Positions 58,424 to 62,999 of a stretch of 64,000 nucleotides of DNA are shown in pieces (positions within the stretch are counted from its first letter, which is position 1; each line of letters opens with the position of its first letter). The stretch comes from Vicinamibacterales bacterium. Its GTDB lineage: Bacteria; Acidobacteriota; Vicinamibacteria; Vicinamibacterales; SCN-69-37. The notes under the pieces were generated by a model. The model was not told the DNA's origin and searched no databases. It saw only the letters and a program-made list of their open reading frames with translations. Where the stretch lies: the NCBI GenBank assembly GCA_030827135.1, contig JAURFE010000001.1, forward strand, positions 1,000,368 to 1,064,367, in the 5' to 3' direction. Both the position numbers and the translations under genes were made by a program.

Positions 58424-59163
58424 GGCGGCCGTTCGCCCAGCCACCAGGCCGGCCGCCGCACGCGACGCAATCCGAACCGGTCCACGGTGTGCGCTTCGAT
58501 GTGTGCCATCGCGACATCCAGGTCGTCGGTGACCTTCAGCAGGTCGAGGTCGCGCGGCGACATCGCACCGGCCTGCACCATCTCGCGCAACAACACCATG
58601 TAGGGTTCCCAGTAGGTTGTCCCGACGAGCACCACCGGGAAGTTGGCGACCTTGTTGGTCTGAATCAGCGTGAGCGCTTCGTTCAATTCGTCAAGCGTCC
58701 CGAGCCCACCGGGCAGCACCACGAAGCCATACGAGTACTTGAAGAGCAGCACCTTTCGCACGAAGAAGTAGTGACAGGTGACCCATCGGTCGAGGTACTT
58801 GTTGTGCGCCTGTTCAAACGGCAGCTTGATGTTGCAGCCGACTGACAGACCGCCATGGTCGTGGGCACCGCGGTTGGCAGCCTCCATGATGCCCGGCCCT
58901 CCGCCCGTCATGACGGCAAACCCCATCTCGCTCAGACGACGCCCCACGTCACGGCCGACGTCGTAGTACGGGTGGCCTTCGCCGAAGCGGGCCGATCCGA
59001 ACACGGAGATACAGGGCCCGACAAAATGCAGCTTGCGGAAGCCGACGACAAAATCGCGGACCGCACGCCAGAGCAACTGCAGCTCACGCAGGCGGGAGTG
59101 GGGACCTTCGAGCAGCAGGCGGTCGGACTGGCTGCCGTTGGGACTGGTCACGGGTACAGCCAC
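58363..59163 (-). CDS. LOG-family (Rossmann-fold TIGR00730-type) protein
   Basis: 266 residues. [60 protein letters not shown] (PGGxGTxxE) define the LOG/'lysine decarboxylase-like' nucleotide 5'-monophosphate phosphoribohydrolase family. HFFV-type helical segment [19 protein letters not shown] lies in the middle. The C-terminus is basic and unlike the family's usual end. Start overlaps the pdxH 3' end by 16 bp. Confidence 0.9.
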
Positions 59164-59720
59164 TCTGACGTCCAGCCGCCGTCGGCGCGATCGAAGGCCT
59201 GCCGCGTATGGAGGCGACCGATACCGGCCTTCCAGAATTCAATGTGGTGCGGAACCAGCCGGAAGCCGGACCAGAATGGCGGGCGGGGGACCGCGCGGCC
59301 GACATACCGTGCCCCGATGGCCGCGGCCCGCGCCAGCAGCGTCGCCTGCCCCGAGAGCGTCTCACTCTGGCGGGACGCCCAGGCACCGATCTGGCTCTCA
59401 CGCGGGCGCGTCGCAAAGTACGCGTCGGCCTCCTCGTCGGGTACGGACACGACATCACCTTCGATCCGAACCTGGCGTTCAAGCGCCGGCCAGTAGACAC
59501 ACAGCGACGCGTGCGGCGTGTGCGCGAGTTCGCGCCCCTTGCGCGATCGGAGGTTGGTGAAAAAGGTGAATCCGCGCAGGTCCACGTACTGGATCAGGAC
59601 CATGCGGCCGACCGGCCGGCCGGATTCACCGACAGTGGAGAGACAGGCGGCCTTCGGGTCGAATCCTCCCCGAGCGACCGCCTCGTCGAGCCATTCACGA
59701 TAGTGTGCGATCGGATCCAT
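59148..59720 (-). CDS. pdxH: Pyridoxine/pyridoxamine 5'-phosphate oxidase
   Basis: 190 residues from ATG at 59720 (GTG at 59723 alternative). [80 protein letters not shown] and [20 protein letters not shown], then WLYP cover the conserved FMN and PLP sites of PdxH (W..L.RQVR.EG; RLH.R). It makes PLP using FMN and O2. Its 5' end follows the selenoprotein-like peroxiredoxin gene. Confidence 0.94.
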
Positions 59721-59736
59721 CACACACTGACCTATA

Positions 59737-60279
59737 TCACTTCCGCTTCACGCCGAGCTCGCCCAATTTCCGCGCCAGGTCGTCGCCGGCCGTACCGGTG
59801 CTGACCTGTTTGTCGATGTGGAGGATCTTCCCGTCCGGCCCGATGTAGAAGGTCCAGCGGCGGGCCATCCCCATGGGGGACAACACACCGTATGCAGTCG
59901 CCACATCTTTTTCAGGATTGGAAAGGATGGGAAAGTCAGCTTCGTGTTCTTTCGCGAACCTCGTGTTGGTCTCCGCGTCGTCGACGCTGACCATGAAGTA
60001 CGCGACATCAAACTGCCGAATCGTCTCGCCGCTCGCCCGGAGCGACTTGCATTCGGCCGTTCAACCACCGGTGAATGCCTTCGGGAACCACGCCAGGACG
60101 ACGGCGCGTCCCTTGTAGTCCGAAAGCCGATGGGTCTTGCCATCCGAGCCGGCGAGGGCAAATGCGGGCGCTTGATCGCCCACCTTCAACTCGACGGCCG
60201 GCGTCTGGGTCAGGGTGGCGGCGGCGATACTCGCGACAAGCACCGTAGCCGTCAGCCCCACGAGGGACAGGGTTTTCAT
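59737..60279 (-). CDS. Putative selenocysteine-containing peroxiredoxin (in-frame TGA at the catalytic position)
   Basis: Reading from ATG at 60279 through an in-frame TGA (60063-60061) gives 180 residues. Signal peptide [20 protein letters not shown]; then [100 protein letters not shown]. These are the complete AhpC/TSA-peroxiredoxin blocks. Homologues have the peroxidatic Cys at 'AFTGGCTAEC'; here codon 73 is TGA, with the resolving-type Cys four residues on. The two halves keep the same frame with no other change, and a bSECIS-like hairpin follows the TGA. A stop in this place would remove the active site. It would reduce peroxides in the periplasm. Recoding is inferred; a nonsense mutation or sequence error is the alternative. 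Confidence 0.82.
60028..60046 (-). promoter_or_regulatory. Candidate bacterial SECIS hairpin
   Basis: Fourteen nt after the TGA, the minus strand reads GTCGCTCCGGGCGAGCGGC: a 7-bp stem (one G-U) closed by a CGGGC loop. A short stem with loop guanines about 20-25 nt downstream of UGA is what the bacterial SelB-binding element requires. Confidence 0.65.
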
Positions 60280-60320: not shown

Positions 60321-62999
60321 ATGGCGAACTTCTACGATCGCGTCGCGGCGGCTGCCGACCGCTTCCCTACCCTGCATGCGGTGGAACTGCAGACCCCGGA
60401 CGCCCTGATTCCGACCACCTACCGCCAGTTGACCGACGAGGCGGCCGCGTTTGCCGCATGGCTCAGGGACCGCGGGGTCACGGCAGACGACCGTGTGGCG
60501 ATCCTCGGCGACAACGATGCCCGGTGGATTGCGGTCTATTTCGGCATCCTGCGGCTGGGCGCCATCGCGGTTCCCCTGGATACGGCCTACAAGTCCGCGC
60601 AGGTGCGGACCGTGCTGGAGAACTCCGGCGCCCGGCTCATTTTCACGACCACGCGGTATGAGGAGGGCGTCCGGGCGGCGTGTGAGGGGGTGTCTCCTGC
60701 GCCTGCAATGCGGCTGATGCACGATCTGCCGCAGGCCGCGCCGGCTCCGCCCGTGGTCGCCCGTGATGACCACGAGGCTGCCGTCATCCTGTATACGTCC
60801 GGCACGACCTCGGATCCGAAGGGAGTCGTCCTCACCCACGGCAACCTGGAAGCCGAGCGGCAGGCGGCGTTCTCGGTCGTCACCGTCACCGAGACCGACG
60901 CCGTCCTGGGCGTGCTTCCCCTCTTTCACTCACTCGCGCAGATGGCCAATCTGTTGTTGCCGCTCGCGGTTGGCGGACGCGTGGTGTTCCTCCAGAGCGT
61001 GAACTCGACGGCGCTGCTCGAGGCCCTGCAGCAGCGGCAGATCACGATCTTTGCGTGTGTGCCGCAGTTCTTCTACCTGATCCATCAGCGCGTCATGGGA
61101 GAAGTGGCGAAAGCCAACCCGGTACGCCGGGCGCTGTTCCGGATCCTGCTGAGGACAAACGGCTGGCTGCGCGAACACACGGGATGGAACCCGGGACGCC
61201 GGTGGTTCGCCAAAGTGCATACGGTGCTCGGTTCGCATATGCGCTTTCTCGTCACCGGCGGCTCGCGCTTTGACCCGACGATCGGGCGCGATCTGTACGA
61301 CATGGGATTTGCGCTCCTCAATGCGTACGGCCTGACGGAGACATCCGGAGGCGCCACGATCGTGCGCCCGAATGACCGCTACACCACCTCGGTCGGCCAG
61401 CCACTCAAGGACGTCGAGGTGCGGATCGCTCCCCGTGAGGGTGGTGCGGACCGCGAGCAGGAAGACGGTGAAATCCTGATACGCGGGCCGATTGTCATGC
61501 GCGAGTACTTCAGACGTCCGGACGCCACGTCGGACACGTTGAAAGACGGCTGGCTGCACACGGGCGACCTGGGCCGGCTCGACGCGGACGGCCGGCTCTA
61601 CATCACGGGTCGCAAGAAGGAGATGATCGTCCTGGCCTCGGGCAAGAACCTCTATCCCGAGGAAATCGAAGCGCATTATCGCGAGGCCGCAGTGATCAAG
61701 GAACTGTGTGTGCTGGGCCTGAGCCGGCCGGGGGAGCCCATCGGCGAGCGGCTGCACGCAGTGATTGTGGCTGATGAAAATGTCTTGCGGGAGCGCGGCG
61801 TCGTCAACGTCCAGCAGTTGGTGCGCTTCGAAGTGGAAAGCCGTTCGGTACACCTGCCTGCCCACAAACGCATCCTGACGTACGACATCTGGGTTGAACC
61901 GCTGCCGAGAACCACCACAGGCAAGGTCAAGCGGCATGCGATCGAAAAACGGCTGCGGGAACAGGCAGTCGTCGAGACACGGACCGAAGCGGCCGTGCTG
62001 AGCGACGACGAGACCACATGGCTGCAGGAGCCGGCCCACGCCGCGGCCATGCAGACCATCGCGACACAACTCAAGCGGCCGACGGTCAGGCCCGACGCCA
62101 ACCTGGACCTCGACCTCGCGCTTGACTCCATGGAGCGTGTGGAACTGCTGACCGCGCTCGAACGGCAACACGGCTGCCGTGTGCTGCCTGAAACGCGCAG
62201 CACGATCTTCACGGCGCGACAGTTGGTGGACGCTGTGCTCGCGGCGGAACGGAACCCAGGGGCGTCAGCCCCGGGGCCCGACTCCATGTGGGAGTCCATC
62301 CTCCATGAACCCATCGATCCCGAACTCGAACAGCAGTTGCGGCACACGCCGTTCCTGCGCACAGCCTTCTTCTTTGTCGTCGTCAGAACCATCGCCGGCG
62401 TCGTGTACCTGCTGACGCGCGGACGCGCGACGGGACGGAGCCATCTGCCGGAGAAGGGGCCGTGCATCATCAGCCCGAACCACCAGTCGTATCTGGACGG
62501 CTTTGTGATGCTTGGGGCCCTGCCGTTCGGCGTGTTGCGACAGGTCTTCGCTGTCGGCGCTGCGGAGTACTACCAGACCCCGTTCATGAAATGGGTCGCG
62601 CGCGTGACCAACGTGATTCCCGTGGATGCGGATGCCAATCTCGAGCGCGCGATGAAGGCCGGGGCGGCCGGCCTGCGGCTCGGCAAGGTGTTGATGCTCT
62701 TCCCTGAGGGAGAGAGGTCAATCGACGGGGAACTGAAGACCTTCAAAAAAGGCGCGGCCATCCTGTCCGCACACTGCAAGGCGCCCATCGTGCCCGTCGC
62801 GCTGGACGGCCTGTTCGAGTTGTGGCCCCGCAGCCGTCCGTTCAACTGGCGCGGACTCCTGCCGTGGCGCGCCACGCCGGTGCGACTGGACGTCGGCGTC
62901 TCACTCACCGTTGTGCCGGGGAAGTATGCTGAGGGGACGCAGGCGTTGCGTGACGCGGTCGCGCGCATGTTTGACGCTCTGCGACGGAGGTCCCGATGA
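60321..62999 (+). CDS. AMP-dependent acyl ligase / acyl carrier / PlsC acyltransferase fusion
   Basis: 892 residues. Domain 1, AMP-binding ligase (1-560): [87 protein letters not shown]. Domain 2, carrier (about 580-650): [20 protein letters not shown] with the phosphopantetheine Ser in LDSM. Domain 3, acyltransferase (about 690-890): [17 protein letters not shown] (NHX4D) and [20 protein letters not shown]. Activation, carriage and transfer of an acyl chain to a lysophospholipid in one chain resembles Aas-like enzymes but with an added carrier. Stop overlaps the gdh start (ATGA). Confidence 0.92.

Follow-up and report, generated by a model that had tools for sequence, protein, structure and literature searches.

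A probable selenocysteine peroxiredoxin in Vicinamibacterales, encoded through an in-frame TGA

We conclude that a gene in a 64,000-nucleotide stretch of DNA from a Vicinamibacterales bacterium (the window) almost certainly encodes a peroxiredoxin, probably exported, that uses selenocysteine (Sec) as its peroxidatic residue. The Sec reading draws together the gene and its in-frame TGA, a hairpin and the covariation of its stem, the Sec-decoding genes of the genome, and conservation among relatives. The parts of the gene are as follows.

59737–60279, minus strand: Sec-peroxiredoxin gene, 180 amino acids if UGA73 is Sec; AhpC-TSA family, PrxQ/AhpE-like
60196–60279, minus strand: N-terminal coding segment of 28 residues, a likely export signal, its hydrophobic N-terminus judged by eye
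60061–60063, minus strand: in-frame TGA, putative Sec codon 73, at the position of the peroxidatic cysteine, placed by frame and by alignment with solved peroxiredoxins
60049–60051, minus strand: TGC codon of Cys77, the second redox residue (U-x3-C), invariant in 55 sequences
60028–60046, minus strand: bSECIS hairpin with a 7-bp stem and the loop CGGGC (60039–60035), 21 nt from UGA to loop

The initial annotation described one continuous AhpC/TSA peroxiredoxin interrupted only by TGA at codon 73, where homologues carry the catalytic cysteine, and both points are borne out. From the ATG at 60279 the frame reaches codon 73 and then continues for 107 sense codons to the terminal TGA at 59739–59737; no other stop lies in the peroxiredoxin frame between 60279 and 59737. 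The Pfam AhpC-TSA match covers residues 33–154 (E 4.7e-32) and spans the TGA, making both halves one domain. Codon 73 aligns with the peroxidatic cysteine of solved BCP/AhpE peroxiredoxins, within a PxxxTxxU motif (P66-K-A-F-T70-G-G-U73). AlphaFold2 predicts a confident peroxiredoxin fold (pLDDT 95.4), whose nearest neighbours in the PDB are BCP, Bcp1 and AhpE. The second half contains an 85-codon open reading frame that starts at an ATG of its own, as expected if the halves were two separate functional small proteins, and termination at the UGA is expected in Sec decoding when selenium is short, as would suit a regulatory stop. Since the halves jointly form a single Pfam domain and a single, confidently predicted fold, and splitting them destroys the active site, we consider two proteins or a regulatory stop extremely unlikely. 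Elsewhere in the genome, a second peroxiredoxin (G000:C1:4252-4665) was flagged for TGA but is an ordinary Cys protein, with the TGA located before its start.

The TGA is widely conserved. In the genome itself and 59 relatives, 40 of 60 carry a TGA orthologue and others have TGC; an alignment of the fetched loci places TGA at the identical codon, and across distinct homologous stretches the codon 73 site is TGA in 76 and TGC or TGT in 37. Another metagenome-assembled genome (MAG; L024/L095) carries a TGA orthologue at 96% identity. Downstream of the TGA, dN/dS within the genus is 0.05–0.09, like that upstream. TGC orthologues do occur in the same family, as they would if a nonsense mutation or a sequencing error had turned TGC into TGA in a normal Cys peroxiredoxin, but the same TGA recurs in dozens of species and in separate assemblies, and purifying selection continues beyond it; we therefore give a pseudogene or sequencing error virtually no weight. 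The initial annotation had named a TGC on resequencing, and additional stops in close relatives, as findings that would tell against Sec. Instead, a separate assembly and many species share the TGA, and extra stops are isolated cases: one TAG in G043, and one TAA in a second copy in G049.

The hairpin lies where a bacterial Sec insertion element would be expected. It reads GUCGCUC-CGGGC-GAGCGGC, that is, 7 bp, a 5-nt loop and 7 bp, 19 nt in all, and begins 14 nt past the TGA, exactly as first annotated, with the G at the second loop position. Published bSECIS limits are a loop of 3–9 nt, a stem of 4–16 bp, G in the first two loop positions, a distance of 16–37 nt from the UGA, and a minimum free energy of at most -7.5 (PMC13188914); the window hairpin falls within all of them (5 nt, 7 bp, G second, 21 nt, -11.1 kcal/mol). 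Synonymous re-coding of the window gene alone gave the same seven pairs with a CGT or CGG loop codon in 1.5% of cases, and the cross-species case against a chance hairpin is far stronger than this window-alone case. Hairpins resembling a bSECIS, with 7 bp or more, occur in 70 of the 76 distinct Sec stretches versus 4 of the 37 Cys stretches, and five of the seven stem pairs show compensatory changes. Across 47 distinct rows, 89.7% of stem cells were paired, and 27 cells were double-changed versus 4.4 in shuffles, which ignore relatedness. The slid-register control does not ignore it, and there pairing was best only at the true register and dropped in every slid one. Of the 72 Arg codons at the opening of the loop, 67 are CGT, versus 32 of 221 Arg codons in neighbouring genes, which favour CGC and CGG. 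In some Sec members, their sequences judged by eye, the stem is shifted and the loop is 8 nt long (GUCGCUG...CAGCGAC). A search of Rfam at the hairpin returned no matching family, with one hit at chance level (E 3.5). In a genome without selA (G013), the TGC orthologue L030 retains six of the seven hairpin pairs, likely a fossil bSECIS left after loss of Sec.

The genome encodes the means to decode Sec. The initial annotation called for a search for selA, selB, selC and selD, and all four are present, selA as two pieces: tRNA-Sec has anticodon TCA and scores 62.4 bits, above cut-off; selB scores 302 bits, above cut-off, and shares its contig with the window; and selD scores 354 bits. Positions 1–66 of selA extend up to where contig C5 ends, and positions 266–366 lie at the end of C4, the pattern of a gene across an assembly gap; the middle of the gene is absent from the assembly (80 contigs totalling 3.24 Mb, with a listed completeness of 100%), and selA is complete or nearly so in five other members of the genus. 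Among the 60 genomes, selA occurs in 39 of the 40 with TGA versus 9 of the 20 others, with a P of 5e-6 that serves as a guide only, because the genomes are related. The one TGA genome in which selA was not found, G054, is 90% complete and in 780 contigs. An altered genetic code, or plain read-through that inserts another amino acid at UGA, would leave the same open frame across the TGA in a single gene. We regard this as very unlikely, as UGA is the normal stop of the very same gene, TGA alternates with Cys codons at the codon 73 site only, and the conserved bSECIS hairpin is accompanied by tRNA-Sec, SelA, SelB and SelD.

Sec and Cys forms of the gene occupy one locus, as shown by two shared neighbours, whose names are presumptive.

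59148–59723, minus strand: downstream neighbour, presumably a pyridoxamine 5'-phosphate oxidase-like gene (pdxH); same neighbour in the genus
60321–62999, plus strand: divergent upstream neighbour, presumably an acyl ligase/acyltransferase; same neighbour in the genus

Cys forms L033 and L042, from sister genera, adjoin the same pdxH, and Cys form L030 adjoins the same ligase gene. Relatives without selA have Cys instead of Sec at this locus, and within the family TGC homologues are found in genera devoid of selA (G007, G008, G010, G012 and G013). A quick tree requires at least 10 changes between Sec and Cys, with patchy support and no readable direction. Close homologues occur in 21 of 149 genomes sampled from the phylum, and most of these homologues have TGA. 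Among the named genomes scanned, members of the Acidobacteriota carry the TGA form, as do MAGs labelled Gammaproteobacteria, Planctomycetota and Verrucomicrobiota, and Microbulbifer and Halopseudomonas carry the Cys form; a plasmid search returned only remote BCP/ResA relatives. The MAG titles of L144, L150, L157, L171 and L095 (Klebsiella pneumoniae, Akkermansia, Acidimicrobiia) mismatch their sequences, and these bins are probably mislabelled. At L031 and L105 a Cys paralogue (FTQGCTLEC) directly precedes the Sec gene as a tandem pair.

Sec peroxiredoxins of the TxxU type (PF00578/COG1225) are already known, since PrxU, and the Vicinamibacterales gene adds a wide branch to them. Like them it combines an AhpC-TSA fold, Sec at the peroxidatic position of PxxxTxxU (a motif given in PMC13188914) and a bSECIS directly downstream. 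PrxU of Eubacterium acidaminophilum exemplifies the bacterial group (PMC13188914, PMC9312934), and TxxU peroxiredoxins are abundant in ocean surveys (PMC2398784, PMC5029168). The window protein differs from known Sec-Prx/PrxU in its signal-like N-terminus, its U-x3-C arrangement and its lineage, and scored 52.2 bits against the PrxU model NF040737, below the cut-off of 270. PrxQ/BCP thiol peroxidases provide the best sequence models and are among the nearest folds, and here too scores fell below cut-off (77.5 bits for NF006960, cut-off 140; 78.5 bits for NF053650, cut-off 260). In PrxQ/BCP the peroxidatic residue is Cys and the resolving Cys follows at +5 in the same helix, as in the genome's own PrxQ (TPGCTTESC), whereas the window protein has Sec, and its second Cys is at +4, as in 55 of 55 aligned rows. 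Mycobacterium tuberculosis AhpE (1xvw, 4x1u) has a TM-score of about 0.84 and about 31% identity to the window protein, but is a 1-Cys, Cys-based enzyme, in contrast to the Sec, second conserved Cys and signal-like N-terminus found here. AhpE is not known to be exported.

UxxC Prx-like thiol:disulfide oxidoreductase selenoproteins (PMC13188914) share PF00578 and an active-site Sec, whereas the window protein has TxxU followed by x3-C. Two members of the same genus (L091 in G002, L093 in G003) carry a ResA-like gene with a signal-like N-terminus and a TGA in SADW-U-PYC, a UxxC motif; this probably represents another selenoprotein in the genus, and a search of the window's genome did not find it. 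Six loci from relatives in the order (L084, L085, L086, L087, L089 and L090) belong to a peroxiredoxin family with TGA in AFSPG-U-TxE, probably another Sec peroxiredoxin, and L081 and L082 are diverged TGA paralogues with altered motifs (KANTKT-U-TREC and KVFAKL-U-VIDC).

From these data we infer that Sec is inserted, that the protein is exported, what its substrate and reductant are, and that Cys77 is the resolving residue. SelB carrying Sec-tRNA(UCA) would bind the hairpin just 3' of UGA73, and Sec would be inserted in place of termination. The protein would be exported after translation, a probable fate that we read from one feature, its signal-like hydrophobic N-terminus, and Sec73 would then reduce hydroperoxides. 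All 55 proteins compared share residue 73 (Sec or Cys), Cys77 and the presumed catalytic Arg, and the TxxU Thr is nearly invariant. In the AlphaFold2 model Sec73 and Cys77 lie in the helix after the active-site loop, and Cys77, one helical turn away, probably resolves the selenenic acid; a Sec73–Cys77 bond, from i to i+4 within a helix, would need local unwinding, which counts against this link. A periplasmic thioredoxin-like partner probably recycles the enzyme.

In 2006 Acidobacteria were credited with few selenoproteins, namely four proteins in three families (PMC1794560). Open papers on Vicinamibacter, Luteitalea or Acidobacteriota selenoproteins held no description of the window protein, a weak negative, as supplements, subscription papers and preprints lay outside the scope of that search; the Vicinamibacterales branch of Sec peroxiredoxins thus appears undescribed in open papers. 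We suggest, tentatively and with somewhat more doubt than confidence, that a mainly-Sec subfamily of exported peroxiredoxins, with a U-x3-C one-turn selenenylsulfide couple, may be a standard envelope peroxide defence of Vicinamibacterales, missed by present annotation, with repeated switches between Sec and Cys, some of them within a single locus and accompanied by loss of selA. Gene callers would truncate the protein, and no NCBIfam model recognises it above cut-off. The finding points to widespread Sec use in an order of Acidobacteriota that is abundant but little studied, and the exchange of Sec and Cys at one locus, tracking selA, offers a natural series on what selenium gains an enzyme that is probably extracytoplasmic.
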